From positions 186,001 to 250,000 of the forward strand of contig NZ_SDDZ01000005.1 in the NCBI RefSeq assembly GCF_004115975.1: a DNA stretch of 64,000 nucleotides. Direction: 5' to 3'. Source of the stretch: Gelidibacter gilvus. Lineage in GTDB: Bacteria; Bacteroidota; Bacteroidia; Flavobacteriales; Flavobacteriaceae. The position numbers and the translations under genes are program-made. A model generated the notes under the pieces. The model was not told the origin of the DNA, searched no databases, and worked only from the letters and a program-made list of their open reading frames with translations. This document shows, in pieces, positions 41,571 to 63,991 of this stretch. How positions within the stretch are numbered: the stretch's first letter is position 1; every line of letters begins with the position of its first letter.

Positions 41571-42749
41571 TTATTCGTAAGTCAAATACGCCGAAACCAG
41601 CCAATGGTTTAATTTATCACCCTCAACAGGCGTCGCCGGGATTTTAATTTTGATAGCATGATCACCAGCTTTCAAATTACCTAAATCTACTACCATTGGT
41701 TCCACAAATGACCCAGGGCACCAGTTGGAACGTGACAAATCTGAAGATGCAATACGCTCTTCAATTTCCTTAATTTCATATTTTCTGGTTTCAGAACTTA
41801 TATAAGACGCCGAATCTTTCTTGATCCACACGCCCGAAGTTGGATTGAAACGTCTAAAAGAGGCACAATCATCACGCCACGGAATGGTATCCAATACCAA
41901 TTTGCCATCAAAATAGACACTGTTTTTGATTTTGATAAATTCATCACCACCGCTGTGCCCACCGTGGCCTGTTGTGATATAATGTAGCTTTACGTTTTTT
42001 GCATTCTTTTTTAAATGAATGGTTTGCTCTAAATCTTTATGGGCGAAATTATCCGGTATTTGCTGTCCGCCAACATACGGAATCGTATTTACTAGTGGTA
42101 TCACGGAAACTTTTTGTTGTTTTCTGTCGGAATAGGTCAATTCCATATCAAAGTCATAGCCTTCGGCAGTCCAAGTGTCAATCCAAACGCCCACATAAAA
42201 TGTACCGGTGACCAGACTTTCCAAATCGGTAATGTCATGTTCCCAAACCACTTGTTTTTCCCATGAAGGGATATAAACTGGTTTTCTATATTTCACTTTG
42301 TTATCACTGTAATGTCCTACGCCAAATGGGGTCATAAATCGCATTAATTCTACCACTGGATTATAGCTTTTACCGGTGACAAATCCGGCGTATTTATCAT
42401 CCACATAAGAATCTGATGGGAATTTTTCGTCTTTTTCCGCAATGGAAAGAATGGAGAGTTTCTCTGGATCGGTGACCACAAAGCAAGATCCGGACTTATC
42501 CCAACGATCGCCAGCGGAACGTACAGTCAATTTGATTTTCACATCAGTTCCATTTGCAAATGTGGGCACGGTCACTTTTTTGTAGACCAAACGTCCGTCC
42601 ATTAAGCTGACGGCTTCAGCATCCGTACCTTTTTCACCACTAAAATTTAGAGGTTGTTTTTCAAAGACCTTGTAAGTTGATGGATTTTGTGCGTAGACCG
42701 AAACGAACGTGGCTAAAAGGAATGTTATGAGGAGGGATTTGAGTTTCAT
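41571..42749 (-). CDS. Peptide-N-glycosidase F-family enzyme (PNGase F)
   Basis: Cleaves the amide between the core GlcNAc and asparagine, releasing whole N-glycans and converting Asn to Asp. It has 392 residues with a signal peptide ending VYAQ, then the two jelly-roll halves of the PNGase F fold (about 30-215 and 220-390). Recognisable blocks are GDRWDKSGSCFVV, where Asp84 corresponds to the essential Asp60 of the Elizabethkingia enzyme; TTGHGGHSGGDEF, with Glu270 in the region of Glu206; and SRSNWCPGS. At the place I align to Glu118 (TETW) this protein has Asp191 in WIDTW, which may alter activity. It is the last gene of the GH92-GH92-PNGase F group. Alignment positions are from memory. 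Confidence 0.88.
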   Translation of the reverse strand: MKLKSLLITFLLATFVSVYAQNPSTYKVFEKQPLNFSGEKGTDAEAVSLMDGRLVYKKVTVPTFANGTDVKIKLTVRSAGDRWDKSGSCFVVTDPEKLSILSIAEKDEKFPSDSYVDDKYAGFVTGKSYNPVVELMRFMTPFGVGHYSDNKVKYRKPVYIPSWEKQVVWEHDITDLESLVTGTFYVGVWIDTWTAEGYDFDMELTYSDRKQQKVSVIPLVNTIPYVGGQQIPDNFAHKDLEQTIHLKKNAKNVKLHYITTGHGGHSGGDEFIKIKNSVYFDGKLVLDTIPWRDDCASFRRFNPTSGVWIKKDSASYISSETRKYEIKEIEERIASSDLSRSNWCPGSFVEPMVVDLGNLKAGDHAIKIKIPATPVEGDKLNHWLVSAYLTYE

Positions 42750-42793
42750 TTTTAAAATGTTTATTAGTTTTTAGTTTTTGAAATTGTGGTTAA

Positions 42794-42824
42794 GACCTAC
42801 AAGGTTTTGGAAACCTTGCAGGTC
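42794..42824. repeat. GACCTACAAGGTTTT palindrome
   Basis: GACCTACAAGGTTT is inverted as AAACCTTGCAGGTC, and a degenerate third arm (AACTTGCAGGTC) follows. The same family occurs at 57275-57337 and 58681-58713. It lies between GH92 and PNGase F, where it may form a hairpin in the shared transcript. Confidence 0.6.
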
Positions 42825-42855
42825 GCGGGAAACTTGCAGGTCTCCGTAACATTAT

Positions 42856-45081
42856 TTATTCCAAAATGATTTTTAGTATTTTAGCGTTTACCAATTCGTC
42901 ATGGCTAACAAAATAACCTTTGTGTTTTTTACCGTTGATTAGAATTTGTTTGATTCGACCTTTTCCAACTTTTTCAATGACCAATTCCTTGTTTTTATAG
43001 TATTTGGAATCTAATTGAATAGTGATTTTATCGAACAGTGGCTTTGTAATGGTATATTTTGGATCGCCCGGAGAAACAGGATAGAAGCCCATCATTGAAT
43101 AGACTGCCCAAGCCGACATGGTGCCGGTATCGTCATTTCCAGGAAGACCATCGGCCGTGTTTTTAAAATGTTTCCTGACAAGTTCTTCAACCATTTTCTG
43201 ACTGCGCCATTCTTCACCTTTCACATAATTGAAAAGATACGGATACGCAATTCCCGGCTCGTTGGCCATATCAAACTGCTTGGTGTCAAAAATCTTTTGC
43301 AACTGATCCGTAAAGCCTTTATTGCCACCCATCAATTTAATTAATCCAGGTACATCATGCGGAATCATAAACGAATATTGCCATGCATTCCCCTCAATAA
43401 AACCAACGTTTTCAGCAAAATTAGCGCCCTCATTTGGGTCGAAAGGTTCGTACCAATCGCCATTTTGCAATCTTGGTCGCAACATTTTTAAATTTTTATC
43501 GAAGAGCTTTTTATAGGATAAGGAACGGTTTTGAAATCGCTTATAATCGTCTTTTTTGCCCAATGCATTTGCCAATAAAGCGATGGCGTGATCGGCAGCA
43601 TTATATTCTTGGGTCGTAGAAACCGAACCGCCATGATCGGTGGTGACATAGCCTTTTTCGATATAATCTTTTAGACCTGGTCGCAACGGATTATTCTCGA
43701 TCTGATCAGCACTTTTTAACATGGCTTCGTAAGCTTTTTCAACATCAAAATCCTGAATCCCTTTCAAATACGTATCGGCAATGACAATACTTGCAGGATC
43801 GCCTACCATGGTAAAAGTTTCGGTGGAATTCAATTCCCATTTTGGGAGCCAGCCGTTTTCATCGTACATATCCAACATACTTTGGATCATATTTGATTGT
43901 TGCTTCGGATATACTAGCGATAATAACTGATGCACATTTCGATAGGTATCCCACAAAGAAAACACGGTATAACGCGTGCCCTTGGTGTTCCCAATTTCAC
44001 CGGTTTTAATTTCAGGGTAATCGCCATTCCAATCGTTTAAAGTATTGGGATGGATTTGAGTGTGATACAATGCCGTGTAAAATATGGTCTTATCTTCCTT
44101 GGTGCCACCTTCCACTTTGATTTTGGAAAGCGTTTCATTCCACGCGTTATGAGTTTCCTTATAAACATCTTCAAAGGATTTGCCCCCAGTTTCCTGTTCT
44201 AAGTTTTCGCGTGCGTTTTCAATACTGACGTAACTCACGCCAATTTTAACCTCAATGGTTTCTGGTTTGTCAAAGTTATAGCTGAAATAACTTCCAATAC
44301 TATCGCCCACCACCATTTTGGTCGACTTTTCCATGAGTCGCGTTTTTCCATTATACCCCATCCATTGCGCTTCCACACCTTCATAAAGTGCAGGTTTTTT
44401 CCATACTCCAAAATTGGCCGCAGGCTTGGAAAATTTCGCCACAAAATAGACGGGATACGCCGCCTCTGGACTGTTATAACAAAACGATCCAACTGAACGC
44501 ATGCCTTGAATTTCAGTATCAGATACTATTTGCACCATGGCGCCTTCTTCATTGGTCAGTCCAATGCCCAAATTCAATAGAATATTGGCTTGCCCTTCCG
44601 GAAAGCTGAATTTGCTCACGCCTACTCTGGTCGAAGCGGTAAATTCTGCTCTGACGTCGTATTTGTCAATTTGTGTACTGTAATAGCCAGCCTTGGCCAG
44701 TTCGTTTTTATAGGTGGAACCATATTTTAAATGATCCGTTTCCAGATCGCCCGTGGTTGGCATCAGCAGTAAAACACCTAATTCTGGGCAGCCTACGCCA
44801 CTTAAATTGATATGACTGAACCCCGTTAAAAACGTATTTTCATGCACATACGGATTGGACAGCCACTGACTGTCTTTTTCCAAAGGCAAGTTTTGTGGAC
44901 CAGCAACATTGAATGGACTGATGCTTGCCATGCCTCTTGGAGCAATGGGACCAGGATAAGTAGCGCCATAATTGGAGGTGCCAATAATTGGATTCACATA
45001 ATCGGCGGGCTCTTCTTGTGCGACAACTATAAAATTGCCACAAAAAATTATGAGCATAAGGAATGATCTAAATTGTTTCAT
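42856..45081 (-). CDS. GH92 alpha-mannosidase (divergent motif variant)
   Basis: A calcium-dependent inverting exo-alpha-mannosidase, 741 residues, signal peptide ending VVAQ. The N-terminal beta-sandwich domain begins YVNPIIGTSNYGATYPGP (about 27), followed by the (alpha/alpha)6 barrel with WDTYRNVHQLLSLVYP, GNAWQYSFMIPHDV and a C-terminal GLPGNDDTGTMSAW motif. That last block differs from the GNEDCGQMSAW form of the two GH92s at 52699 and 61727, and the region around ANEPGIAYPYLFNY also differs from their HGNEPSHH. These positions shape the +1 subsite in studied GH92s, so another linkage (alpha-1,3 or alpha-1,6 rather than alpha-1,2, for instance) is likely. The start overlaps the stop of the upstream GH92 by four bases (45078-45081), suggesting translational coupling. 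Confidence 0.94.
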   Translation of the reverse strand: MKQFRSFLMLIIFCGNFIVVAQEEPADYVNPIIGTSNYGATYPGPIAPRGMASISPFNVAGPQNLPLEKDSQWLSNPYVHENTFLTGFSHINLSGVGCPELGVLLLMPTTGDLETDHLKYGSTYKNELAKAGYYSTQIDKYDVRAEFTASTRVGVSKFSFPEGQANILLNLGIGLTNEEGAMVQIVSDTEIQGMRSVGSFCYNSPEAAYPVYFVAKFSKPAANFGVWKKPALYEGVEAQWMGYNGKTRLMEKSTKMVVGDSIGSYFSYNFDKPETIEVKIGVSYVSIENARENLEQETGGKSFEDVYKETHNAWNETLSKIKVEGGTKEDKTIFYTALYHTQIHPNTLNDWNGDYPEIKTGEIGNTKGTRYTVFSLWDTYRNVHQLLSLVYPKQQSNMIQSMLDMYDENGWLPKWELNSTETFTMVGDPASIVIADTYLKGIQDFDVEKAYEAMLKSADQIENNPLRPGLKDYIEKGYVTTDHGGSVSTTQEYNAADHAIALLANALGKKDDYKRFQNRSLSYKKLFDKNLKMLRPRLQNGDWYEPFDPNEGANFAENVGFIEGNAWQYSFMIPHDVPGLIKLMGGNKGFTDQLQKIFDTKQFDMANEPGIAYPYLFNYVKGEEWRSQKMVEELVRKHFKNTADGLPGNDDTGTMSAWAVYSMMGFYPVSPGDPKYTITKPLFDKITIQLDSKYYKNKELVIEKVGKGRIKQILINGKKHKGYFVSHDELVNAKILKIILE

Positions 45082-47411
45082 TTTTTAGGTTTGTTTTTTG
45101 AGGTGCTTAAGGAAAACGGCACACTATCAGTAGCAGTTGCCCACGTTTTACTTGGCGTATTGCCCATATTAAATTCTAATCGTCCTCCATTCTGGAGTGC
45201 ATCAGATTTTAAAAAGGTATGGTTATAAGGTTTTCCATTTAATTCAGCACTCTGAATATAAATATTGGCTTCTGAATTGTTTTTGGCAGTGATTTCAAAG
45301 GTGTTTCCGTTTTCCAAATGCAGAGTTACTTTTTTAAACAACGGACTTCCAATGACATATTCATCAACACCAGGTGTCACCGGATAAAAGCCCAAAGTAC
45401 TGAACACATACCATGCGGATGTTTGTCCGTTATCTTCATCACCGCAATACCCATCAGGCGTGGCTGAATACAATTTTGACATCACATCCCGGACTTTTTC
45501 CTGTGCTTTATACGGTTGATTGGCGTAATTATACAGATAGATCATGTGTTGAATGGGTTGGTTGCCATGCGCATAATTCCCCATATTCACGATTTGCATT
45601 TCTCTAATTTCATGAATGGTAAATCCGTAATAGGAATCATCAAATTTTGGTGGCATTTCAAAAACCTCATCCAATTTACCAACAAATTGATCTTTCCCAC
45701 CCATTAAATCGATCAGACCTTGGATGTCATGAAATACAGACCAAGTATAGTGTAAGCTATTACCTTCCGTAAACGCATCGCCCCATTTTAAAGGATTGAA
45801 CGGACTTTGGAAACTACCATCCTTGTTTTTTCCTCGCATCCAATTGGTTGAAGGATCGAACAGGTGTTTATAATTTAGGGATTGCTTGTAGTATTTTTTA
45901 GCGAGTTTCGGTTGACCCATTTTTTCTGCCATCTGGGCAATGGTGAAATCGGCGTAAGCATATTCTAAAGTTCTTGCGGCATTTTCGTTGATATCCACAT
46001 CGTAAGGCACGTAGCCTAATTGATTGTAATAAGTCAATCCCGCTCTTCCTACGGAATTTACGGGACGTCCATCAGGCATGGTAGCGTTTTTCAAAACCGC
46101 TTCCAACAACACCTCAGCATCCATATCTTTGGCACCTTTTAGATAGGCATCTGCAATAATAGGCGCTGAATTGGAACCTATCATCACATCACGATGGCCC
46201 GGACTTGCCCATTCTGGCAGCCACCCCGATTCTTTATAGGTATTGGCCAAGCCTTCCATAATCTTGCCGTTGAGCTCCGGATACATCATATTAAAAAATG
46301 GAAAAACTGCTCTGAAGGTATCCCAAAATCCGTTATCGGTAAACATATAGCCCGGTAAGACTTCACCATTATACGGACTATAATGCATGACGTTATCATT
46401 CACATCATACTCATAAAACTTCCTTGGAAACAACAACACGCGATATAAAGACGAGTAGAAAGTTCTTAGATTATCGATATGATCATCTTCAATTTGAATT
46501 TTATTCAATTCGGTTTCCCAAGCGTGTTTTGCTTTTTCCTTGGTATTTTCAAATGAATCAGTTCCAATTTCTCTCAAGAGATTCAATTGTGCTTGTTCAG
46601 GACTTATAAACGATGATGCCACTTTCACATGAACGACATCTCCCCTTTTCGTTTTAAATCCGATGATGGCACCCACATGGTCGCCTTTGCTATTGGTCGA
46701 ATTTTCCACTAATTGCCAACCATCTTTCCAAGTGTGATTGATTTTAAAGTCCGTATCAAATACGGCAATAAAATAATTATGGAAATTCTCTGGAACTCCA
46801 CCATGATTATTCCTCGCATAGCCAATGATTTTACGCTCTTCCGGAATGATTTTCACCATGGATCCTTTATTAAAAGCATCGAGGATGATATAGGAGTTTT
46901 CAGATTCTGGAAAGGTGAATTTAAAACTGGCCGCTCTTTCTGTAGGAGTGATCTCAGCCACCACATCATAATCGGCTAAATACACCGAGTAATGATAAGG
47001 CGTTACAGTTTCTGCCTTATGCGAAAACCAAGATTCCCGATCATCTTCTTGAAATTTTAAATCGCCCGTCACCGCCATCAATGAGAAGGCTGCATAATCA
47101 TTTACCCACGGACTTGGTTGATGGGTCTGTTTAATACCGTGGATCTTGTTTTCACGGTATTTATAAGTCCAACCATCGCCCATTTTAGAGGTCATTGGTG
47201 TCCAAAAATTCATGCCCCAAGGCGTGGCAATGGCGGGATAGGTGTTTCCATTGGATAAATCAAAGGATGAATCTGTTCCCATTAAAGGGTTTACAAAATC
47301 CACCAAATCCTTACTGGCGATGTAGGCGTTGTTTTGTGCCTCTATATGTGCATTACCAAATATGAAAGCAAGCAAAAACACCAATGAATATTTAACCATC
47401 ATTTTTGACAT
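45078..47411 (-). CDS. GH92 alpha-mannosidase (second subgroup)
   Basis: A second GH92, 777 residues, signal peptide ending HIEAQ. It opens with the family block DFVNPLMGTDSSFDLSNGNTYPAIATPWG, which is longer than in the other three copies, and ends with YCGDEDNGQTSAWYVFS. The middle carries FWDTFRAVFPFFNMMYPE and AHGNQPIQHMIYLYNYA, where Gln replaces the Glu of HGNEPSHH in the GH92s at 52699 and 61727. This is thus a third motif type in the window and probably a distinct linkage preference. It is the first gene of the GH92-GH92-PNGase F trio, with a 215-base region upstream containing a CGACTT...AGTCG repeat. A start at Met1 or at the adjacent Met4/Met5 is equally possible. Confidence 0.94.
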   Translation of the reverse strand: MSKMMVKYSLVFLLAFIFGNAHIEAQNNAYIASKDLVDFVNPLMGTDSSFDLSNGNTYPAIATPWGMNFWTPMTSKMGDGWTYKYRENKIHGIKQTHQPSPWVNDYAAFSLMAVTGDLKFQEDDRESWFSHKAETVTPYHYSVYLADYDVVAEITPTERAASFKFTFPESENSYIILDAFNKGSMVKIIPEERKIIGYARNNHGGVPENFHNYFIAVFDTDFKINHTWKDGWQLVENSTNSKGDHVGAIIGFKTKRGDVVHVKVASSFISPEQAQLNLLREIGTDSFENTKEKAKHAWETELNKIQIEDDHIDNLRTFYSSLYRVLLFPRKFYEYDVNDNVMHYSPYNGEVLPGYMFTDNGFWDTFRAVFPFFNMMYPELNGKIMEGLANTYKESGWLPEWASPGHRDVMIGSNSAPIIADAYLKGAKDMDAEVLLEAVLKNATMPDGRPVNSVGRAGLTYYNQLGYVPYDVDINENAARTLEYAYADFTIAQMAEKMGQPKLAKKYYKQSLNYKHLFDPSTNWMRGKNKDGSFQSPFNPLKWGDAFTEGNSLHYTWSVFHDIQGLIDLMGGKDQFVGKLDEVFEMPPKFDDSYYGFTIHEIREMQIVNMGNYAHGNQPIQHMIYLYNYANQPYKAQEKVRDVMSKLYSATPDGYCGDEDNGQTSAWYVFSTLGFYPVTPGVDEYVIGSPLFKKVTLHLENGNTFEITAKNNSEANIYIQSAELNGKPYNHTFLKSDALQNGGRLEFNMGNTPSKTWATATDSVPFSLSTSKNKPKK

Positions 47412-47602: not shown

Positions 47603-47626
47603 TAAGCAGTCTTGATTCTACTTTTT

Positions 47627-48973
47627 CTAATTCAACTCCACCGCCTGTCCATGACCTCGGTATAATTTCAAAGGATCTTCCAACTCAACTTCTAAAATAG
47701 TCACATTGGCATCCAAATTCTTTACTTGAGGCACTTCAATTCTTAAAATTCCAGGAATATTATTCCACGCAGCACCACCATTTCTTTCAAAACTGAGTTC
47801 TTGACCGTTTCCAACAACTTTGATGGATTTTACTTTATTTTGAATCCCTTTTAATGAGATGTAATTATTAGGGGTATCAAATAATGCCAAATAAATTTTG
47901 GTCTCGTCTTTGTTCAATAGTGTCGGTCCATAAAAATGCCCGTAAGGCAAACCTGCTTTAGAATTGAAAACTGCCAACTCGTGTTTTCTCACCCAGTCGC
48001 CCAAAGCTTCCAAACGTTCCATTTCCATGTCGCCAATAGTACCGTCAGGTTTTGGCCCGATGTTTAATAACAAATTCCCGCCAGAAGCAATCACCTCAAC
48101 AAAAGTCCTGATGATTTGTGATACGGGCTTGTAATTGGTATCTGATGGGAAATTCCCCCAATTATCATTCATCGTCATACAAAATTCCCATGCGCCATCA
48201 GGTCTTACAATGGGCACGCCTTGTTCTGGGGTGCTGTAATCACCATAAGTTTTCAATCTGGAATTGACAATCACTTTCGGGTTCCATGCCAACAAAGTAT
48301 CTTTTAAGGATTCCGCTTGCCAGGCTTCACTTGATTGTTCCCAATCGCCATCAAACCAATATAAATCTGGTTTATATTGCGTGCTCAACTCTTTTAACTG
48401 ATCATGATTAAATTTAAGAAACCTTTGCCATGGTGACAATTGATTTTGATTTTTCTGCGGATAATTCTTTCGGGTATCAGGTCGTGGAAACACCACGTCA
48501 TAATCAGGATGCGACCAATCGATCAACGAATAGTACAACCCAACTTTTAAATCTTCTTTTCTTAAAGCATCCACCAATGGACCTACCAAATCGCGTTTTG
48601 CCGGTGTTTTTTCCACAACATTAAGTTTACTGACTTTGGTATCCCATAAGGCCACCCCGTCATGATGTTTTGTGGTCAAGACCGCATAACGCGCCCCAAC
48701 TTTCTTGAACAATTTTGCCCAAGCCTCTGGGTCGTAATTTTTGGCGGTGAACTTCTTCCCTTGCGCCATATAATCGTCATAGGTAATTTGCTTATGATAC
48801 AACGACCAGGACTCACCAATGCCATTGACGCCATAATAACCCCAGTGCATAAAAATGCCGAGTTTAGCATCTTGAAACCACTCCAAACGTTCTTCTTTTG
48901 TTAGCTTTTCTTGTGCCGTAGCTTGATTGGCCACTAAGAAACATAGGACTGCTACAATTTTAAAATATCTCAT
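47627..48973 (-). CDS. GH29 alpha-L-fucosidase
   Basis: A retaining exo-alpha-fucosidase of 448 residues with a signal peptide ending ATAQ. The GH29 barrel begins with FQDAKLGIFMHWGYYGVNG, includes TTKHHDGVALWDTK, and carries the nucleophile Asp208 in YWFDGDWE. The GNLLLNIGPKPDGTI block marks the end of the barrel. A C-terminal beta domain follows. GH29 enzymes remove alpha-1,2/3/4/6 fucose depending on subfamily, so core or antennary fucose of N-glycans is the likely target here, by context. Its start lies two bases after the stop of the upstream GH20, so the two are coupled in one operon. Confidence 0.93.
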   Translation of the reverse strand: MRYFKIVAVLCFLVANQATAQEKLTKEERLEWFQDAKLGIFMHWGYYGVNGIGESWSLYHKQITYDDYMAQGKKFTAKNYDPEAWAKLFKKVGARYAVLTTKHHDGVALWDTKVSKLNVVEKTPAKRDLVGPLVDALRKEDLKVGLYYSLIDWSHPDYDVVFPRPDTRKNYPQKNQNQLSPWQRFLKFNHDQLKELSTQYKPDLYWFDGDWEQSSEAWQAESLKDTLLAWNPKVIVNSRLKTYGDYSTPEQGVPIVRPDGAWEFCMTMNDNWGNFPSDTNYKPVSQIIRTFVEVIASGGNLLLNIGPKPDGTIGDMEMERLEALGDWVRKHELAVFNSKAGLPYGHFYGPTLLNKDETKIYLALFDTPNNYISLKGIQNKVKSIKVVGNGQELSFERNGGAAWNNIPGILRIEVPQVKNLDANVTILEVELEDPLKLYRGHGQAVELN

Positions 48974-51315: not shown

Positions 51316-51666
51316 AATTTTAATTTATTGTGCAGAGATGTCGCCCCGATGGGGCTTACAACCTTACCTAATTTATGCTACAAAGATGTCACTCCTAAGG
51401 AGCTATTAATAATTCGTTATTTCAATACTACAAGGATGTCGCCCCGATGGGGATAATAATACTCACCTATTTATTGCTATTAATAGGTCGCTCCTCTGGA
51501 GCTTTTGATAATCCACTATTTCAATGCTACAAAAATATCGCTCATCCTATCCTAGCCCATCCGTAGTTTAATTGTACGCTCTAATAAACTCTCTCTCTGC
51601 CCTTGACATTCAGGCGGGCTTCGGAGAGGTCGGAACTGCTTTTTCGGCAGTTCCGGGTGAGGCTTC
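51316..51666. repeat. Array of CTACAAAGATGTCGCTCC palindromic repeats
   Basis: No gene lies in this 351-base gap. CTACAA-type units start at 51378, 51428 and 51527, with related GTCGCCCCGATGGGG or GTCGCTCCTCTGGAGC cores at about 51340 and 51486. Each core is a small hairpin (CTCC-TN-GGAG or CCCC-GAT-GGGG). The unit spacing is about 50 bases or twice that. Around 51600-51655 a second GC-rich inverted segment (aactgctttttcggcagtt) resembles a hairpin next to the glycosylasparaginase stop. Such arrays are like REP elements; no transposase is seen. Confidence 0.65.
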
Positions 51667-54951: not shown

Positions 54952-56067
54952 TTATTTAAAGCTTTCTTTCGTTTCCCTAATGGTTTGCAGATAAGCATCG
55001 GTTAATTGCGGTCCATCAAAGAAGGTCACGCCTTTTGCTCCGTTGTCTTTTGCGTAATGAATGGCTTCTTTTAATTCTTCCGCAGATGTAAATGGTGGTA
55101 GAAAAACGCCCGTATTCAATCCGACATTTTTAGGTTCCAAATCCGTGACGCCTTGTTTGGTGGCATAACCGATCCAATCAATTTCCTCGTTATAAAATCC
55201 GTGGTAAATCATCGGATAAACTTCATCAATATTCCATTTATCCCAACGTTGCCGCACCATATGATCTGCCATTTCAGGATAAGGGAAAACCGCAGCCGTC
55301 AATTTTTTATTGTGTTTATGAACGATATCATAAGCCTCATTTACCAAATTACGGATGGCATTCAACCTAAAATTCTTCCATTCCATATCGATCGCCGTAT
55401 TTTCACTCTCCAACGGATTTTTATGATGGATTTTTTCGAATTCACTAATGCAGACCTCACAATAGCAAAAATCGAATTCTGCCATTTCCGTGTCCTGTTT
55501 TAAATCGTATTTCGGAAGTAAACCGATGGGTAAGAAAATATCGGGAAATCGGATATAATCCAAATGCACACTTTCAATGCCCTCTACTTTGGCCATTTTC
55601 TCAACCAAACTTAAGATATGATTTCTAGATTCAGTCCGTGTAGGGCATAACCATTGGTAGTAATTGACATACGGACGGGTATCAAAACAGGATTTACCGT
55701 CTCGGCTGACCATATACCATTCGGGGTGTTTTTGAGCAACAGTATCACCTGGACGATTAACAGCCCACATCCACGCATGCACTTTTAAACCTTCTTTAGC
55801 TGCTAACGGAACCAAACGTTCGAGTTCTTTAGCATCGGTTGAGGTGTTTATCAGAACCTCATCAATGCCACCTTCCTTATATCTTTTAAATTCGGCGGTA
55901 TACTCGGCATCAGCTTTATTTTTATTGGAAGTGATCCAGGTACCGAATTTAAAAGACCCATCGGTAGATGCGGAAGCATCTGAAAGATTTTGCTGTATTC
56001 TTTCCATTTGATTGCAGGCAACTACAGTTAAAAGTAAGGTCGCAAAAAGGAGGTGTCTGGTTTTCAT
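54952..56067 (-). CDS. GHL10/DUF187-like putative glycoside hydrolase lipoprotein
   Basis: A lipoprotein of 371 residues (lipobox TVVAC, Cys18) with a single TIM-barrel-like domain (about 40-360). Segments recalling the GHL10 (DUF187) proteins are FGTWITSNK, INTSTDAKELERLVPLA, VHAWMWAVN, HLDYIRFPD, VFPYPE and VYPMIYHGFYNEEIDW. A cysteine cluster CYCEVC (about 208-213) is unusual. The substrate of this family is not established that I know of, and no catalytic residues can be named with confidence; Asp and Glu in HLDYIRFPD and PYPE are candidates. Sitting 24 bases after GH18 and six before GH92, it is firmly inside the N-glycan operon. It might cleave a linkage not covered by the known enzymes. 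This is the most attractive unknown in the block. Confidence 0.75.
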   Translation of the reverse strand: MKTRHLLFATLLLTVVACNQMERIQQNLSDASASTDGSFKFGTWITSNKNKADAEYTAEFKRYKEGGIDEVLINTSTDAKELERLVPLAAKEGLKVHAWMWAVNRPGDTVAQKHPEWYMVSRDGKSCFDTRPYVNYYQWLCPTRTESRNHILSLVEKMAKVEGIESVHLDYIRFPDIFLPIGLLPKYDLKQDTEMAEFDFCYCEVCISEFEKIHHKNPLESENTAIDMEWKNFRLNAIRNLVNEAYDIVHKHNKKLTAAVFPYPEMADHMVRQRWDKWNIDEVYPMIYHGFYNEEIDWIGYATKQGVTDLEPKNVGLNTGVFLPPFTSAEELKEAIHYAKDNGAKGVTFFDGPQLTDAYLQTIRETKESFK

Positions 56068-56091: not shown

Positions 56092-57258
56092 TTAAAACAA
56101 GGATTCAAAAAGGGTATTCAGTAGCTCTTGATCTTTATCTAAACTATATTCCCAAAACATGACGCCACCCAAGCCTTTTTCTTTGATATACTCTGCCTTT
56201 AACTTGATTTCTTTAGGTGTATCATAAGAAATAAAAATATTATCGGTAGGATTCCAGAGGTAAGATGCTTTAGCAGATTCGTCGTACATTTTTTCATGCT
56301 TTCCGGATTTTAATTTTTCAAGTATTTCCCAATAGGAAATAATATATCCGCCTTGATTGGCCGATGCATATAAGGGAACCTCAGTAGGTGCAACCTTCTC
56401 CCATTGTCTGCCATAAAAAGGAATGCCCAAAACCAATTTTTCAACCGGAACACCAGCTTCGATATGTCTATCTATGGATTCAACGCCACTATTCCCGCCA
56501 TATTTTTCTTTGTCTGATGGGTGTAAATTAGCGTGATGCCCCGTTTGGAACATCCAACCTTGATAAAAGTCGTAACCCATAACATTTATAAAATCAAGAT
56601 GCTTGTGTGCTTCTCCTAAATTGGTATGATCGATATAAGTTTGATCGGCTCCTGTGGCAATAGTTAAAAGGTAATGTGTGTTGTCTTTTTCGCCTTGTAC
56701 ATCCAATGATTTACGGATTTCAGCCAAAAGCAAAGTGAAATTATCTTTATCGGATGGACGGAAGTCATTGTCTTCTGCACGTTGCCCTGGATATTCCCAA
56801 TCTAAATCGACACCATCGAAGTCGTGATTTTTTAGAAGTTCCACGCAGCTTTCTGCAAACTTCTTTCGTGATGCATCGTAAGCTGCCATGGTTGAAAACT
56901 GATCAGACCAAACCCAACCGCCCACAGAATACAGGACTTTTAAATCTGGATTTTTGGATTTCAAACCGATGAGTGTAGCGATTTTAGCCGCATCCGTTTC
57001 CAATTCAAAGGCTGCTTTACCTTCTACAATATTGGCAAAGGCAAAATTGATATGCGTGAGTTTTGTGGCATCAATTTTTGAAAAATCATAATCTTCGTAG
57101 CCCGCTGCGTAGCCAATGATTTTTAGATCTACGTCAGATCTTTTTGCAGTGGTTTGCTCCTGATTTGAGACCTCTTGATTTGTTTCTTCCTTTTTTTCAG
57201 ACGAATTGTTGCACGCGAAAAAAAGCGGGATTAAAAAAATGTATTTGATCACTCTCAT
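56092..57258 (-). CDS. GH18 chitinase-like endo-beta-N-acetylglucosaminidase, lipoprotein
   Basis: A lipoprotein of 388 residues (lipobox FFAC, Cys16) with a GH18 barrel. The DxxDxDxE motif reads DGVDLDWEYPG, with Asp148, Asp151, Asp153 and proton-donor Glu155. YSVGGW, MGYDFYQGW, GIPFYGRQW and the terminal GGVMFWEYSLD are also family marks. The WEYPG form is that of chitinases, not the D-x-DDEY form of EndoH-like enzymes. In this locus it would be expected to cut the chitobiose core of N-glycans, or chito-oligosaccharides. The chitinase-like alternative remains open. A neighbouring repeat (57275-57337) separates it from the CBM9-like gene. Confidence 0.9.
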   Translation of the reverse strand: MRVIKYIFLIPLFFACNNSSEKKEETNQEVSNQEQTTAKRSDVDLKIIGYAAGYEDYDFSKIDATKLTHINFAFANIVEGKAAFELETDAAKIATLIGLKSKNPDLKVLYSVGGWVWSDQFSTMAAYDASRKKFAESCVELLKNHDFDGVDLDWEYPGQRAEDNDFRPSDKDNFTLLLAEIRKSLDVQGEKDNTHYLLTIATGADQTYIDHTNLGEAHKHLDFINVMGYDFYQGWMFQTGHHANLHPSDKEKYGGNSGVESIDRHIEAGVPVEKLVLGIPFYGRQWEKVAPTEVPLYASANQGGYIISYWEILEKLKSGKHEKMYDESAKASYLWNPTDNIFISYDTPKEIKLKAEYIKEKGLGGVMFWEYSLDKDQELLNTLFESLF

Positions 57259-57346: not shown

Positions 57347-58408
57347 CTATTGACTTAAAAATTCGCCATCCTCTTTTATAATCAGTATTTTATCTGTAAA
57401 TGGACTTTTTACTGAAATGGTCCATCCAAAACTATGGATTTCAATTTTTGGTCGGATGGTTTTTCCTTCAACAACAATTGGGGATGACGATAGTTGATCA
57501 ACCGAAGTTGCCCATTGTTTATTCGTTTCGTAATGTTTTTTTTGAGCACGGAACACCTCGTACATTTCCCATTTGATTTTTTCATCGTTGGGGATTTCAA
57601 AACTATCTTTTCCGCCAGCTTCTTTGGACGAGAAATACACATAGCCCCACTTTTCAGGTTCGTGCATATTGATAACGCCTTGTGAGGACCAAACCCAATT
57701 GTATTCTGGAAGATAATTACCTTCGGCATCTTTTTTTCGACCGTATTTCCCATCGGTGATTTGATGATCCCAGTTCACTCTTGAAAAATTAACGCGCCAA
57801 AAATCATCTTTAGGCACATTTTCTTCGAAATAAGCTTTTTTGAAAACATCCCAAGGAATTGCCATCTCGAGCATCCAACCTTTGTCGGTATCCTTCGGAT
57901 TGTTCAATGTTCCATTGATGTTGATGGCTGTTTTCATCCCCGTTGCGGTCCAATCGTTTAAAACCACATTGCTTTCACGATAGGGTTTGTTGACAAATAA
58001 GTCCCATACGGTATTGATGGCATTAACCTCGATTTCATAATAATTATGGGTGTCGCCATCGGGATCAATGAATACTTCAAAATCGTTGTTGTAGAAAATA
58101 ATGGCGTCGTGTTCGGTGATGTCTGCCCAAACGTGTGGCTCTTCCATTTTCGCCAAAATATAGAAATAGGTATCATCCCATAACATTTTGACTTGGGTGT
58201 CGTAGGTTGGTTTTTTTATGCCTTCAATATCGATGAAGAGGTTGGTCCACGCTACTTTATTCCACGAGGCATCAGCATCACTTCCATCAACGTCTATAGC
58301 TTCGCTGGTATGGTAGGCGATGTAACTTTCGGGAACTGTAATGTTTTTGGATTGCCCAAATGTCAGCATGCACATACCGAAAAACAGGGGTGTTATAAAT
58401 TTAAACAT
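57347..58408 (-). CDS. Carbohydrate-binding family 9-like protein
   Basis: A secreted protein of 353 residues with a signal peptide ending LTFGQ. The first half (about 25-250) is a CBM9/DOMON-like beta-sandwich: DGSDADASWNKVAW, VKMLWDDTYFYILAKMEE, NNDFEVFIDPDGDTHNYYEIEVNA, GWMLEMAIPW and VNFSRVNWDH are the typical blocks of 'CBM9-like' proteins that accompany Bacteroidota catabolic loci. The C-terminal part is less conserved. No catalytic centre is visible. A binding or chaperone-like role towards the glycan substrate is plausible from context, but nothing else is known from the sequence. It is transcribed with GH18 and the genes downstream, and a repeat array lies upstream. Confidence 0.8.
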   Translation of the reverse strand: MFKFITPLFFGMCMLTFGQSKNITVPESYIAYHTSEAIDVDGSDADASWNKVAWTNLFIDIEGIKKPTYDTQVKMLWDDTYFYILAKMEEPHVWADITEHDAIIFYNNDFEVFIDPDGDTHNYYEIEVNAINTVWDLFVNKPYRESNVVLNDWTATGMKTAININGTLNNPKDTDKGWMLEMAIPWDVFKKAYFEENVPKDDFWRVNFSRVNWDHQITDGKYGRKKDAEGNYLPEYNWVWSSQGVINMHEPEKWGYVYFSSKEAGGKDSFEIPNDEKIKWEMYEVFRAQKKHYETNKQWATSVDQLSSSPIVVEGKTIRPKIEIHSFGWTISVKSPFTDKILIIKEDGEFLSQ

Positions 58409-58720
58409 GGAATATTTTATTATTTATTCATGATATATCGCCCGTTGGGGCTACAAAGATGTCGCTCCTACGGAGCTATAATCTTGTCGTTTTTGTTATC
58501 ATTAGCTACAAAGATGACGCTCCTTTGGAGCTATAACGTTTTCTGTTTTGTTATCGTCGGTCTACAAAGCCGTTGCTTTAATTCGGCTAAAATAACATAG
58601 TCAACGCTTTTTATTTAATGAGCAAATGGTTTAGACCTCATTTAAATTCATACCTACAAGGTTTTCCTTCGAGTATATTTAGACCTACAAGGTTTTGAAA
58701 ACCTTGCAGGTCTAATGAAC
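58409..58720. repeat. Tandem CTACAAAGATGNCGCTCC repeat region
   Basis: This 312-base gap has no gene. Near-identical 30-base units start at 58451 (ctacaaagatgtcgctcctacggagctata) and 58506, with a degenerate one at 58562, a period of 55-56 bases. Each contains a GCTCC/GGAGC hairpin. At 58681-58713 a perfect-arm palindrome (agacctacaaggtttt inverted) is present, matching 42794-42824. A plus-strand open frame across the gap is therefore repeat-derived. Confidence 0.65.
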
Positions 58721-59686
58721 TTATAAACTATTATCTTTTGTAAACTGGACGACTTCACTCAATTTCCCAAATGCCATGGCGACTACAGTATCTGCAGCAC
58801 CGTAGTAAATCGCTAATTTATCTTCTTCTATATCGTGCAATGCTGCGCAAGGAAACACCACGTTGGGTACGTCTCCTGTTGTTTCGTAAAGTTCTGCTGG
58901 TCCCAATAAATAAGGTTGGGTTCTGTACTTTACTTTATCGGGTTGATGTTCATCTAAAAGCGCGGCACCCATTGCATAACGGAAGCCGTTACAGGTGTTG
59001 ATTACGCCGTGATAGATCATCAACCAACCTTCATCTGTTAAGATAGGAATTGGACCTGCACCAATCTTGGTACATTGCCAAGCACTGTCAACAAATGCAG
59101 TGGTTTTCATGACACAACGGTGTTCTCCCCAATATTTCATATCCGGACTGTAGCTGATGTAAATATCACCAAATGGCGTGTGGCCATTATCACTCGGGCG
59201 ACTTAACATCGCGTACTTTCCGTTGATCTTTTTAGGAAATAAAACCCCATTTCTATTGAATGGTAAAAAGGCATTTTCACACTGGAAAAACTCCTTGAAA
59301 TCGTAGGTATAGGCAATCCCGATGGTTGGTCCGTGGTAGCCATTACACCAAGTAATCCAATAACGGTCTTCAATCCATACAACCCGTGGGTCATATTTGT
59401 AATCGGATTCGATCATTTCTGTATTTCCTGCTTGCATCACGATTGGATCGTGATTGATGTCCCAATCGATTCCATTTTTACTAAAACCAGCAAAAATATT
59501 CATTTGCACCGATTTGTTATCACATCTAAAAACGCCAGCATAGCCATCACCAAAAGGCACCACGGCACTATTAAAAATACTGTTGGAGGATGGAATATCA
59601 TATCTGTTGATGATAGGATTCTCAGAATATCTCCAAACTACATCTTTGCAACCTTCCGGTTTATCTTGCCAAGGAAATGTACTCAT
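58721..59686 (-). CDS. GH130 mannoside phosphorylase (Man-GlcNAc type)
   Basis: Phosphorolyses beta-mannosides such as Man-beta-1,4-GlcNAc to mannose-1-phosphate plus GlcNAc. It has 321 residues and no signal peptide, so it is cytoplasmic. The five-bladed propeller shows the GH130 blocks [74 protein letters not shown] and [22 protein letters not shown]; the second holds the likely catalytic Asp. The overall set resembles the branch acting on the N-glycan core disaccharide, known from gut Bacteroides and human-gut UhgbMP. Being intracellular, it is the natural terminal step for the disaccharide that the next gene may import. The start ATG is preceded by a 156-base gap containing the ccccct...aggggg repeat. 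Confidence 0.92.
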
Positions 59687-59701
59687 ATGTTATTTATTTT
59701 T

Positions 59702-59731
59702 AGGCCCCCTAACCCCAAAGGGGGAATGGAA
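59702..59731. repeat. CCCCCTAACCCC-AAAGGGGG repeat
   Basis: A short GC-rich inverted repeat (GGCCCCCTAACCCCAAAGGGGG) in the gap between GH130 and the SSS symporter. The string is a familiar flavobacterial intergenic palindrome from memory. On the minus-strand transcript it would form a small hairpin between two cotranscribed genes. Confidence 0.55.
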
Positions 59732-59842
59732 ACGTTTAGGTTAAACTTATTTTGTAAAAAAAAATTATTTTTTGTTCCTAATACTTCCTTTTATGCCAAA
59801 TCTCTCTCACCAATAATTCCTCATTCCTAATCCCTTTCTCCC

Positions 59843-61720
59843 CTAATTCGGAATCTTCCTCACCTTATCCAACCACGTAAACTTCAAGATTATCGAGGTT
59901 ACCAAAAATACGCCTAAAGAAACAAATGCCTTAGGATAATCGCGGATAATAAAGTAAATAGGCAGCACAATCATGCTGGATTGCCAAACAATACCGATGG
60001 CACAGTTTAACATATCCGGCCAAAATTGAGAATTACGCTCAATTTCTGAGTTATCTTTCTTTAATTCATTTAAAACAGGTTTCCAGAATCCCCAAGGATG
60101 GACGTTGGAATAGAAGGATTTCAGAACATCCATATCTGTTGGTTTCGTGAGATAGGTTCCTAAGAAAGAACCTATAAGCGACACCCCAAAGATGACTGGA
60201 AATAAATATATGGCTGATACATGGGACAGATCATAAAGTAGTGTGCCTTCTGTAAAGTTTCCTTTGTTTTGATCTAATAAAAATTGCAGACTGGCAATAA
60301 TCAACCCCGATAGCATGCCCCAAAAATAACCCCAACCATTGAAACGCCACCAAATCCATTTCAAGAAATTGGCCGCTACGTAACCTCCAAACAGAGAACT
60401 GGTAATCCATAAAGTCAGTGAGTTGATGGAATCGGCGAAGAAGCCCATGAATACACCGAGTCCAACCACGGCGAAAGACGCAATATGACTGGCTTTTATA
60501 TAATGTCTATCCGTTGCTTTTGGCTTAAAATATTTTTTATAAATATCATTCACTATATACGCAGGTCCAGCATTGACGAAAGCAGAAAAAGTGGACATAA
60601 AAGCCGCCAATAACCCAGCCAAAAGCAGTCCTTTGATTCCAACAGGAACATGGAAATTAACTACTTGAGGCAGTAAAATCTCCAAATCAGCCCAAGCTAA
60701 ATTAGGATTTGCAGCCATCTCGGGAGCCAATACTACCAAAGCAATAACGACCACGCCTCCAATTAGTAAATACCTAGGAATAAAGAGAACGAGATTGGTA
60801 AAACCACTCATATATGCTGCTTCTTTAACCGTTTTGGTGGAGAGGATTCGCTGCATATCAAAACTTGGTGTTGGTCCAGCGATACTGGCAAAAAAACCTT
60901 TAAAAAGACTCATGCCAATCAAAGCGCCAAACATTTTATACCCTTCTGAATCGACCAAATCATTAAACGCCTGGTATTTATCACTCCAATGGGTTTCCAG
61001 TTCCCAACCAAAGAAAATACTTTTCCACTCATCAGTAAGCACGCTTGTGACTTCAATATCGGTAAACGCGAAAAATGAATAGGCAGCGATCAAAATTCCG
61101 GCAATAACCATAATGCCATATTGTAGTACCTCTGTGGCCACGACGGAGAACATCCCTCCTTTTATGGTGTAAATAGTGGTTAGGAATATAATGATTAAGG
61201 CATAAGATTGCTCAGAAGTCAATAGTTCTGAAGTCCCAATATGCAAAGCCAGATCCCAAGGTAAAATGACGGTCATGAATTTACCCACGCCTTCAAAGAA
61301 ATAGGCAATAAAACCAATGGACGCAATAACTGCAAAAAGCGCCACAATTTTGTGGGACGCCCGTCCGGCTTTATCATCGCCAAAACGCGTTAGGATCCAT
61401 TCCGATCCGGTCATGATATTTGAGCGTCTGATCCAAACGGCCAAAAACATCATAATAAAAATCTGGTTCCATATGGGCCAGAGCCACATGAGCATAAAAC
61501 TCTTGGTACCATAAAGAAATAGCCAACCTACCATTAAGGCGGTTCCAGAAATATCAAACATCCCAGAGCCGTTGCTCAATCCTAAATAGTACCATTTTAT
61601 GGAATTGCCACCCAAGAAATAGGAATCCAAGCCTTTGGAGGCTCTTTTAGACATCCAAATTCCTACGCCTAAGGTTAAAACAATATAGACTGCAATAATT
61701 GATACATCAATAATATCCAT
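59843..61720 (-). CDS. Sodium:solute symporter (SSS family)
   Basis: An inner-membrane Na+-driven solute importer of 625 residues with about 13-15 hydrophobic segments and no separate binding protein. It begins MDIIDVSIIAVYIVLTLGVG; the YFLGGNSIKWYYLGLSNGSGMFD block is the SSS signature near TM2. Blocks AGPTPSFDMQRILSTKTVKEA and LAGLLAAFMSTFSAFVNAGPAYIVNDIY are also typical, and a soluble C-terminal tail (about 535-570) sits before the last helices. Its start lies six bases after the GH92 stop, and GH130 is next downstream. The pairing of SSS with a cytoplasmic GH130 suggests import of Man-GlcNAc or of mannose, but the substrate is inferred. Compared with the Kelch-fused symporter at 15549 it lacks a periplasmic propeller. 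Confidence 0.9.
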   Translation of the reverse strand: MDIIDVSIIAVYIVLTLGVGIWMSKRASKGLDSYFLGGNSIKWYYLGLSNGSGMFDISGTALMVGWLFLYGTKSFMLMWLWPIWNQIFIMMFLAVWIRRSNIMTGSEWILTRFGDDKAGRASHKIVALFAVIASIGFIAYFFEGVGKFMTVILPWDLALHIGTSELLTSEQSYALIIIFLTTIYTIKGGMFSVVATEVLQYGIMVIAGILIAAYSFFAFTDIEVTSVLTDEWKSIFFGWELETHWSDKYQAFNDLVDSEGYKMFGALIGMSLFKGFFASIAGPTPSFDMQRILSTKTVKEAAYMSGFTNLVLFIPRYLLIGGVVVIALVVLAPEMAANPNLAWADLEILLPQVVNFHVPVGIKGLLLAGLLAAFMSTFSAFVNAGPAYIVNDIYKKYFKPKATDRHYIKASHIASFAVVGLGVFMGFFADSINSLTLWITSSLFGGYVAANFLKWIWWRFNGWGYFWGMLSGLIIASLQFLLDQNKGNFTEGTLLYDLSHVSAIYLFPVIFGVSLIGSFLGTYLTKPTDMDVLKSFYSNVHPWGFWKPVLNELKKDNSEIERNSQFWPDMLNCAIGIVWQSSMIVLPIYFIIRDYPKAFVSLGVFLVTSIILKFTWLDKVRKIPN

Positions 61721-61726
61721 TTGCCG

Positions 61727-63991
61727 CTAGTTATTGGATGGTTGTGAACTGTTGTTTACTCCCCAATTTTTATTGGGCTGGTTGCCCATCACAAAATGTA
61801 AAGTGCCACCTTTTAAAATAGTCTCGTGTGAGATTCTTGTCTGATTAAAAGCTTTTCCATTTAAGGTTGCGGATTGGATATAGAAGTTTTTATCCGAAAC
61901 GTTTTCTGCTTCTATGACAAAGGTCTTATTATCTGAAAGCTTAACGGTTGCTTTTTCAAAAATTGGCGTTCCAATTTCGTATTCTGCCGATGCCGGATTC
62001 ATAGGATACAACCCTATTGAACTCAAGACGTACCATGCGCTCATTTGTCCGCAGTCCTCATTTCCACTCAGGCCGTTAGGCGTGGTGTTGTATTGGGTGT
62101 CCATAATATGGCGCGCCCAATATTGGGTACGCCACGGCTGATTGGCATGGTTGAACATGTAGGCAATATGATGGCTTGGTTCATTTCCGTGTGCGTATTG
62201 ACCGATAAGTCCGGTGATATCTACGGAAATATTATCGCCTGTAATTTCAGAGCTTTCCGTAAATAATTGCTCCAGTCGTTTTGTAAAGGCATCATTTCCG
62301 CCGTGGATTTTGATCAGATCATCAACATCTTGAGGCACAAACCAACTGTGTTGCCAGGCGTTACCTTCGGTATAATCAGTTTGTTCTCTGTGGTTGGAAT
62401 GTTTGGCATCAAAAGGTTCGTTCCATGACTTGCCATCTACCGATTTTCCACGCATAAATCCGGATCCGACATCAAATAAATGCTGGTAGGCTTTTGATCG
62501 GTTTAAGAAATAATGATAATCTTCTTCTTTCCCCAATTCCTTAGCCATTTCGGCCACGCACCAATCGTCATAAGCGTATTCTAAAGTGATGGTCACGGAT
62601 TCGTCCAATAAACTGTAAGGAATATAGCCGTATTTTTTATAATGATCCAAGCCGCGTTCGTCCTGCATCATGGTGTTTTTCATTGCTTCGTAGGCTTTTT
62701 CAACATCAAAACCACGAATGCCTTTTTTGTAGGCTTCCACTATCACAGGAATAGAATGGTAGCCGGTCATGGTATTTGTTTCATTCCCATATAAAGTCCA
62801 AACAGGTAATATGTCTCTGACCTCATAATACGCCAGCATAGAGTTGATCATATCAGAAACCCGATCTTTGGCAATAATTGTCAGAAGCGGATGTTCTGCT
62901 CTAAAGGTATCCCAAAGCGACAAAGTGGAATAGGCGGTATAATTTTTGGCGGTAACAATGCTGTCGTTTTCCATTCGGAATTGGCCATTTTTATCGCTAA
63001 AGGTCACTGGTGCCAATTGGGCATGGTAAAGGGCCGTGTAGAAAATAGTTTTTAAGGAATCGGTTGGTGTCTCAACAACAATAGTTGATAATGCTGATTC
63101 CCATAATTTTTCAGCGTCAGCTTTAGTTTTATCAAAATCAAAACCTTCAAGTCCCATATTGTCTTTTGCATTTTCAATACTTACAGATGACAAGGCCACT
63201 TTGGCAAATAATTCGGCACTTTTTTCGGCGGGATCAAAGAACAGCTGAGCGGAAGTCTTTATACCTTCATTTTCGCCTTCTTGAAAAACTTCTCCATCCA
63301 CATAGATCTTATAATCCGAAATTGGCTTTGAGAATTTCGCAACGAAAAACACTTTCTGATTGTGCGCCCAACCTGTACTATGGCGGTAGCCACTTATGGT
63401 GTATCGGTCTTCAACTTTCAACGACGTCGCTACGGCTTTATCCCAGTTAATGGCGAAACCTAAGTCAATAACCACCGACTGTTCATCGCCTTCTTTAAAA
63501 GTGTATTTATGATACGCTGTTCTTTCTGATGTGGTCAATTCTACATTGATATCATGGTCTTGCAAAAAGACTTGGTAATATCCAGGTGATGCAGTTTCGT
63601 TGTTATGATTGTAGGTAGACCTATAAGCAATACTATCTCTGGAGATTGGATTTACGGTTAAATCGACGGCCTTATTGATGGGCATAAAAATAATATCTGC
63701 CAAATCGCCAATTCCTGTTCCACTCAAACTCAAATGACTGAAACCAATGGCAGTATCATCAGAATAATGATATCCTGAGCACCAATCCCAAGCACTGATG
63801 CCGTTAACTGGACTTACCTGCAACATTCCAAAAGGCACGGTTGCACCTGGATAAGTATGACCATGGCCACCCGTCCCGATAAACGGATCTACATAACTGT
63901 TAATTGCGGTCTCGCTTTTTGCAGTTTCAGGTTGCTTATTACAGCTTAAAATCAAAAAAGTGGAGAGAATAATTAGGTATTTGTTTTTCAT
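61727..63991 (-). CDS. GH92 alpha-mannosidase lipoprotein
   Basis: The fourth GH92, 754 residues, lipobox ILSC (Cys17), close in layout to the copy at 52699. It starts YVDPFIGTGGHGHTYPGATVPFG and has SLWDTFRAEHPLLTIIAKDR, EGNAWQHSWFVPQDV, HGNEPSHHIAYMFNHA and GLSGNEDCGQMSAWYVLSSIGLYP. The canonical HGNEP/GNEDCGQMS set and the lipid anchor suggest the same linkage class as the copy at 52699, likely alpha-1,2, with a different chain-length or branch preference. It is the first gene visible of the operon GH92-SSS-GH130 and further. The start is nine bases from the window edge, so the upstream gene or promoter cannot be seen. Confidence 0.94.
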   Translation of the reverse strand: MKNKYLIILSTFLILSCNKQPETAKSETAINSYVDPFIGTGGHGHTYPGATVPFGMLQVSPVNGISAWDWCSGYHYSDDTAIGFSHLSLSGTGIGDLADIIFMPINKAVDLTVNPISRDSIAYRSTYNHNNETASPGYYQVFLQDHDINVELTTSERTAYHKYTFKEGDEQSVVIDLGFAINWDKAVATSLKVEDRYTISGYRHSTGWAHNQKVFFVAKFSKPISDYKIYVDGEVFQEGENEGIKTSAQLFFDPAEKSAELFAKVALSSVSIENAKDNMGLEGFDFDKTKADAEKLWESALSTIVVETPTDSLKTIFYTALYHAQLAPVTFSDKNGQFRMENDSIVTAKNYTAYSTLSLWDTFRAEHPLLTIIAKDRVSDMINSMLAYYEVRDILPVWTLYGNETNTMTGYHSIPVIVEAYKKGIRGFDVEKAYEAMKNTMMQDERGLDHYKKYGYIPYSLLDESVTITLEYAYDDWCVAEMAKELGKEEDYHYFLNRSKAYQHLFDVGSGFMRGKSVDGKSWNEPFDAKHSNHREQTDYTEGNAWQHSWFVPQDVDDLIKIHGGNDAFTKRLEQLFTESSEITGDNISVDITGLIGQYAHGNEPSHHIAYMFNHANQPWRTQYWARHIMDTQYNTTPNGLSGNEDCGQMSAWYVLSSIGLYPMNPASAEYEIGTPIFEKATVKLSDNKTFVIEAENVSDKNFYIQSATLNGKAFNQTRISHETILKGGTLHFVMGNQPNKNWGVNNSSQPSNN

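Follow-up and report, generated by a model that had tools for sequence, protein, structure and literature searches.

In a 64,000-nucleotide window of the Gelidibacter gilvus genome (NZ_SDDZ01000005.1:186001-250000; assembly GCF_004115975.1), by which we mean the whole stretch analysed, thirteen adjoining genes run from 63991 down to 41571, all on the minus strand, and form what we read as a probable catabolic block for eukaryotic-type N-glycans. Open reading frame (ORF) and Pfam scans of the window place first a GH92 alpha-mannosidase (GH92a, 61727-63991; PF07971, E = 1.3e-177), followed by an SSS sodium:solute symporter (59843-61720; PF00474, E = 1.4e-26), a GH130 phosphorylase of the UhgbMP type (58721-59686; PF04041, E = 5.1e-66; UhgbMP 4udk, E = 4.8e-151), a CBM9-domain protein with a signal peptide (57347-58408; PF06452, E = 6.6e-11), a chitinase-like GH18 enzyme with the motif DGVDLDWEYP (56092-57258; PF00704, E = 5.9e-88; best Protein Data Bank (PDB) match chitinase 5gzu) and a predicted GHL10 glycosidase (54952-56067; PF02638, E = 3.4e-11, 43.2 bits against a cut-off of 27.9). 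The run continues with GH92b (52699-54945; PF07971, E = 6.8e-187; 6f8z, E = 3e-196), a glycosylasparaginase of the Asparaginase_2 family (51667-52686; PF01112, E = 7.1e-66; 1p4k, E = 1.3e-124), a GH20 beta-hexosaminidase with an F5/8 C domain (48976-51315; PF00728, E = 8.6e-128), a GH29 alpha-L-fucosidase (47627-48973; PF01120, E = 6.8e-93), GH92c (45078-47411; PF07971, E = 2.7e-176), GH92d (42856-45081; PF07971, E = 3.4e-163), which overlaps GH92c by 4 bases (b), and a PNGase (41571-42749; PF09112, E = 2.8e-56; PF09113, E = 4.6e-54). Lipoprotein-like signals were read by eye in GH92a (LSC-N), GH92b, GH18, GHL10 (C18), the glycosylasparaginase (an RR-type signal with a lipobox-like Cys) and GH20; a simple lipobox pattern flagged GHL10 alone.

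Every family named in the original prediction for this stretch was thus found, on the minus strand and where it had been placed, but that list had overlooked the CBM9 and GHL10 genes. Gaps along the block measure 6, 156, 312, 88, 24, 6, 12, 351, 2, 215, -4 and 106 b: the predicted close packing of several genes 2-24 b apart holds for part of the run (6 of 12 gaps are ≤24 b), but four gaps (156, 312, 351 and 215 b) exceed 150 b. The block holds the genome's single PNGase-domain match, its single glycosylasparaginase match (E ≤ 1e-40), its single GH130 match (E ≤ 1e-60) and four of its six GH92 copies. Pfam scans detected no SusC or SusD among the thirteen genes, the pair that one definition of a polysaccharide utilization locus (PUL) places inside the locus; co-located carbohydrate-active enzymes, a transporter and a regulator are all present, and one shared target glycan seems probable.

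To assess conservation, we compared the best 80 of 146 related loci, fetched with the glycosylasparaginase as query and carrying 12 taxon labels (Flavobacterium 55, Gelidibacter 7, Lutibacter 7, Wenyingzhuangia 2, Polaribacter 2 and seven single labels). Glycosylasparaginase was present in all 80 by design; GH130 and CBM9 were also present in 80, GH20 in 78, GHL10 and the symporter in 77 each, GH92a in 75, GH92d and GH29 in 74 each, GH18 in 22, GH92b in 20, GH92c in 17 and PNGase in 8, a count that is too low, as are those of other edge genes, because the fetched stretches extend only about 10 kb from the glycosylasparaginase. GH29 identity in many loci is only 28-34%, which points to other GH29 types there, and the three loci without the symporter (L040, L042, L073) each begin with GH130. 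All 800 matches in the 80 loci lay on one shared strand within their locus, and the eight-gene core showed no change of order in any locus; a scan of related flavobacteria for the same gene order was a check that the original prediction had proposed. Such recurrence of order and strand shows that the arrangement is not a matter of chance. Several junctions are also tight in relatives, with gaps of ≤50 b in 76 of 81 GH130-CBM9 pairs, 56 of 57 CBM9-GHL10 pairs and all 15 GHL10-GH92b pairs. Accessory genes in single relatives include GH35, another GH29, an MFS transporter, GH97 and GH65; one Lutibacter block (L046) has a mannose-6-phosphate-isomerase-like gene, and a SusC-like match follows PNGase in L044 (27%), L190, L197, L199 and L205. 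In Yeosuana aromativorans the GH130-CBM9 pair is doubled in tandem (L051:3063-6625).

A second sample was not picked by glycosylasparaginase. Among 395 Bacteroidota genomes, the block GH130 (E ≤ 1e-60) occurs in 27, 14 of them Flavobacteriaceae and 13 others. Glycosylasparaginase lies within 10 kb on the same contig in 11 of the 14 (the exceptions being G032, G119 and G609), and by coordinates beside GH130 in none of the 13; 12 of these 13 loci, inspected at 20 kb, also lacked it. PNGase-domain matches were found in 49 of 299 Flavobacteriaceae genomes. From the 31 strongest we fetched 26 loci, leaving out that of the window and four others, and within 20 kb on the same strand found GH92 in at least 18, glycosylasparaginase in at least 12 and GH130 in at least 11, lower bounds in that several stretches stop short of GH130; 8 had none of the three. 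The combination of PNGase, glycosylasparaginase and GH130 in one block, which had been thought unusual, is therefore common: it is a trait of the family Flavobacteriaceae and no peculiarity of the G. gilvus genome.

Immediately upstream of the window is a two-gene regulatory system that points away from GH92a: a LytS-type histidine kinase with its LytTR response regulator (L001:2205-4025), in which His_kinase, receiver and LytTR domains were all detected. LytS matches occur in 63 and LytR matches in 49 of the 80 loci, always on the opposite strand, and where the upstream sequence exceeds 1300 b (53 loci), 51 have a regulator match, both misses being Polaribacter. The divergent region contains a direct repeat, TGNTGT-N15-TGT-N3/4-CGTCTAAA, in 53 of 55 cases (the window and 54 loci, mostly Flavobacterium and hence not independent); L059 and L066 did not match the pattern. 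Among 40 further loci the strict pattern was found in 1 (L206), and diverged forms of equal period could be made out by eye in several others. The spacer was 15 in every repeat although 12-18 was permitted, and self-match of the divergent region was highest at period 21 among periods 8-29. LytTR systems described so far recognise direct repeats of 9 b, for the most part with 12 b between them (PMC6193735), which gives the period of the block repeat (9 + 12 = 21). The right-hand core of the repeat has a single perfect copy in the genome, and 7 sites when one-mismatch matches are included, against 10 for a backward control. The repeat fits a candidate operator of a dedicated LytTR regulator.

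The PNGase carries both N-glycanase domains; its closest PDB entries are 3ks7 and 4qhb, and 3ks7, which we take to be BF0811, matches at E = 1.1e-118 against 8.2e-05 for the classical PNGase F 1pnf. BF0811, a group 1 PNGase, acts on complex and high-mannose glycans and leaves those of plant type in place (PMC9522356); its block relative is assigned, by sequence, to group 1 of the PNGase F superfamily. The nearest of the characterised beta-1,4-mannosyl phosphorylases to the block GH130, whose N-terminus shows no visible signal peptide, is UhgbMP. We take UhgbMP to be active on mannosyl-N-acetylglucosamine (Man-GlcNAc), and the block enzyme fits a predicted cytosolic Man-GlcNAc phosphorylase. 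The four GH92s share 28-46% mutual identity. Among the 60 PDB matches shown of 143 for GH18 were chitinase, chitotriosidase, chitinase-like and plain GH18 or glycosyl hydrolase entries and one N-acetylglucosaminidase, with no endo-beta-N-acetylglucosaminidase (ENGase) by name; GH18 ENGases bear a motif other than DGVDLDWEYP. Because none of those 60 is named an ENGase, this GH18 may not release glycans. The glycosylasparaginase is closest to the E. meningoseptica enzyme, and its alignment with the 1ayy_B beta chain starts at residue 193; at the sequence level, D192-T193 fits N-terminal nucleophile (Ntn) hydrolase autoproteolysis at Asp-Thr, with T193 as the beta-chain N-terminus. Glycosylasparaginase acts on single-Asn substrates (PMC6960285), so proteases would be needed for its step.

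Conserved order and strand, a divergent regulator with an operator-like repeat and a GH130 without signal peptide together support the original proposal of one functional N-glycan unit. We consider, with a probability of about 0.77, that the block is a single regulated unit for the catabolism of eukaryotic-type N-glycans, is probably transcribed as an operon, is conserved in many Flavobacteriaceae and works as follows. PNGase would free glycans from glycopeptides, and outside the cytosol the four GH92s, GH20 and GH29 would trim alpha-linked mannose, GlcNAc and fucose. The CBM9-GHL10 pair, GH18 or both would cut the GlcNAc-beta-1,4-GlcNAc core to leave Man-beta-1,4-GlcNAc; where GH18 is present it could do this, and elsewhere the step may be met otherwise or skipped. 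Glycosylasparaginase would take GlcNAc off Asn stubs once proteolysis is done. The symporter, with Man-GlcNAc as its proposed substrate, would bring the disaccharide into the cell, where a cytosolic GH130 would use phosphate to convert it to mannose 1-phosphate and GlcNAc. The divergent LytS/LytTR pair would control the block through the direct repeat of 21-bp period. The further suggestion that the block is nearly self-sufficient goes too far: it has no SusC/D, its glycosylasparaginase would need proteases and its GH18 is chitinase-like. Outside it lie SusC/D, genes of the GH2 family and one that resembles a sialidase.

Two other accounts of the block as a whole have to be weighed. One holds that it degrades an alpha-mannose-rich polysaccharide and not N-glycans. 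The same run, however, holds PNGase, glycosylasparaginase, GH29 and GH20, for none of which we know a role on mannan, and its GH130 is nearest to UhgbMP with its presumed Man-GlcNAc activity. Similar sulfatase-free clusters of GH92, GH130, GH20, GH18 and CBM9 have been filed under alpha-mannose-rich substrates (PMC6794258), and mannan loci also hold GH92 and GH130, but the source of the latter point itself raises the possibility that PULs rich in GH92 act on N-glycosylated glycoproteins (PMC6298971). We regard a mannan substrate as very unlikely. The other account accepts cooperating genes but divides them among two to four transcripts, with breaks at the 156-, 312-, 351- and 215-b gaps, making the block a cluster and not one operon. 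Two observations tell against a single transcript and in favour of such a division: the four wide gaps are roomy enough for promoters or terminators; and in relatives SSS-GH130 gaps are ≤50 b in just 14 of 77 cases (median 225 b) and GA-GH20 gaps, that is, those between glycosylasparaginase and GH20, in 9 of 48 (median 214.5 b). Against division stand the tight GH130-CBM9 junction of relatives and the single perfect genomic copy of the operator core. Two of the wide window gaps also hold short hairpin repeats that are multi-copy in 1 of the 80 loci and single in 2 more, so that they look like late insertions. Several transcripts are thus a possibility of real substance, short of even odds, and one operon for N-glycans remains our preferred reading.

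GHL10 is the least explained part of the block and the most worth testing. It belongs to its family by a PF02638 score above cut-off, a conserved Asp and a predicted TIM barrel. In the 36 proteins compared (P0001 plus 35 from the 40 loci described below), the invariant residues include W44, H97, D170, Y171, R173 and D176, among others, and D170-Y171 would correspond, via PMC5765458, to Asp196-Tyr197 of Cwp19. The AlphaFold2 model (predicted local distance difference test, pLDDT, 78.9, with weak loops) folds as a TIM barrel and is matched best by the GHL10 domain of Cwp19 (5oq3), with further matches to beta-amylase (rank 4), PgaB bound to GlcNAc, a GH164 beta-mannosidase and lacto-N-biosidase. 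The CBM9 model (pLDDT 76.9) only confirmed the CBM9 fold (7nwn, 1i82). In a survey of 395 Bacteroidota genomes, 103 gave GHL10 matches at E ≤ 0.001, many of them partial. From these we took 40 non-block loci, namely G160 and 39 of 42 distant loci of nearly full length (32-61% identity). CBM9 lies immediately upstream of GHL10 on the same strand in 28 of the 40. Within 10 kb, SusC-like genes occur in 12 of the 40 loci, GH20 in 8, PEPCK in 7, GH18 in 5, NagB/PIG-L in 5 and ROK in 3, and an N-acetylhexosamine (HexNAc) gene of the scored kinds in 14. The pair is thus portable and not specific to N-glycans.

A chitobiose-core role is proposed for GHL10 because PNGase leaves GlcNAc2, GH20 is exo-acting and GH130 needs a source of Man-GlcNAc. 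In its favour speak the pairing with CBM9 outside the block, the cutting of peptidoglycan or its denuded strands by Cwp19 and DigH, and the fold matches to Cwp19 and to GlcNAc-bound PgaB. GHL10 is retained in 77 of the 80 blocks; of the three without it, L060 and L086 have GH18, as does a further GHL10-less block, L198, and only L101, an 11-kb contig of a metagenome-assembled genome, has neither. Several points weigh against this role, some of them in favour of another linkage, or peptidoglycan, as the target of a CBM9-GHL10 pair that is carried along. Of the 40 loci, chosen as non-block, 39 have no GH92, GH130 or glycosylasparaginase nearby (GH92 in 1, the other two in 0). GHL10 had no PDB sequence relative below E = 0.1 in single-sequence and profile searches, and its fold says little, because 680 Foldseek matches reach E ≤ 0.001, as befits a generic barrel. 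Its family relatives include Cwp19, DogH and, presumably, DigH. Cwp19 attacks peptidoglycan as a lytic transglycosylase (PMC6016235), a reaction different from the proposed chitobiose cleavage, and DigH cuts denuded glycan strands, likewise of peptidoglycan (PMC12288456); for DogH, hydrolysis of starch, mannan, cellobiose and melibiose has been reported (PMC9967864), which means that the family is not confined to HexNAc substrates. Three blocks from two genera (L187, L200, L207) carry the symporter, GH130 and GH92 without GHL10, GH18 or glycosylasparaginase, which makes an endo step within the block dispensable; two of them have GHL10 homologues elsewhere in the genome.

DogH's reported action on starch and the three blocks without an endo candidate count against the GHL10 step: that GHL10 cuts the chitobiose core, yielding Man-GlcNAc for GH130, is a tentative suggestion, less likely than not, and we give slightly better than even odds to a pair unrelated to chitobiose. 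A bolder version, in which CBM9-GHL10 is a portable two-gene module for beta-1,4 HexNAc-HexNAc bonds that flavobacteria recruited as a new kind of N-glycan chitobiose-core enzyme, in a SusCD-free operon switched by LytTR through an essentially single genomic operator, we consider unlikely. Joint travel of glycosylasparaginase and the endo step was given no weight: it involves few genera (L187 and L200 belong to one), L201 and L206 keep GHL10 without glycosylasparaginase, and joint absence of glycosylasparaginase, GHL10 and GH18 also speaks against a need for the endo step, and it is therefore not used as support.

Beyond the PNGase, after a gap of 237 b, two LacZ-type GH2 genes and a GH27 gene (33494-41333, minus strand) are a candidate extension of the block; GH2 relatives (43-46% identity) lie inside the block in 27 of the 80 loci, and sulfatases were set aside when judging which neighbours belong to the unit. 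Tandem-like hairpins of the form AGCTCC-loop-GGAGCG followed by ACATCTTTGTAGC fill the intergenic gaps 58409-58720, 51316-51666 and 33179-33493. Within one mismatch, GCGACATCTTTGTAG has 6 genomic copies, 4 of them in the block; within two mismatches it occurs four times in L036 (Gelidibacter pelagius), once each in L038 and L055, and in none of the other 77 loci. A near-perfect palindrome, GACCTGCAAGGTTTTCAAAACCTTGTAGGTC, stands at 58682-58712 and 42794-42824, with five genomic sites within two mismatches. Elsewhere in the window, a 906-residue ORF (15549-18269) fuses a Kelch domain resembling N-acetylneuraminate epimerase with an SSF symporter, which suggests sialic acid uptake; an M28 peptidase, two GH20, a GH123 and a GH84 gene on the plus strand (18318-27905) form a second amino-sugar or glycoprotein block; and SusC, SusD, GH109, a DUF3472/DUF5077 protein and a hybrid two-component regulator occupy 1941-13939. 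Outside the window, beyond the divergent regulator, a SusC/D-like pair was seen by eye, not by Pfam (L001:4730-9807), within a longer stretch on the block's strand (L001:4730-19280) that also has a GH27-like gene (by eye), GH20, SGNH/SASA esterases and a BNR sialidase-like protein.

For gut Bacteroides, where we take BT1033 of B. thetaiotaomicron to be a GH130 locus, a scattered arrangement had originally been set against the compact block. This contrast does not hold in general: in B. helcogenes and B. vulgatus, group 2 PNGases sit in larger loci, with neighbours that include SusC/D, GH29, GH3, GH130 and GH92, and others are orphans (PMC9522356). Gut N-glycan loci share the PNGase, GH92, GH29, GH130 and GH18 families with the block; they differ from it in that B. 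thetaiotaomicron has the steps distributed among several loci, that three of the group 2 PNGases are described as orphans, and that the relevant sections of both accounts do not mention glycosylasparaginase (PMC9522356, PMC11180146). Marine Bacteroidetes (Formosa, Polaribacter, Aurantivirga, NS5) have sulfatase-free GH92-rich PULs with GH92, GH130, GH20, GH18 and sometimes CBM9 or GH2, like the block; unlike it, they are grouped by SusC/D, and the passages on them mention no PNGase, glycosylasparaginase or GHL10 (PMC6794258). Our searches of open-licence PubMed Central (PMC) papers found no description of a gene order fixed across flavobacterial genera, of GHL10 as a member or of the LytTR pair with its repeat. 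For a cluster type that is common among environmental flavobacteria and has mostly been filed under mannose-rich substrates, an N-glycan function would strengthen the case for scavenging of protein N-glycans; it would also give GHL10, a family with few characterised members, a testable role, and point to a regulator and an operator that may govern the use of N-glycans outside the gut. The alf-2 genes of Lactobacillus casei likewise combine glycosylasparaginase, a GH29 fucosidase and a permease for an N-glycan remnant, but act intracellularly on one glycoamino acid, with no mannosidase or PNGase among the genes listed in the part of PMC6960285 that concerns them. The PNGaseRz operon of Runella zeae resembles the block in its PNGase, fucosidases, mannosidase, GH18 and asparaginase; it differs in a PNGase with an extra bowl-like module, and the account of it is silent on GH130, a symporter, a CBM9-GHL10 pair and a LytTR regulator (PMC12381499). 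Much of the pattern is thus already known, and the G. gilvus block is a variant of known N-glycan catabolic clusters.

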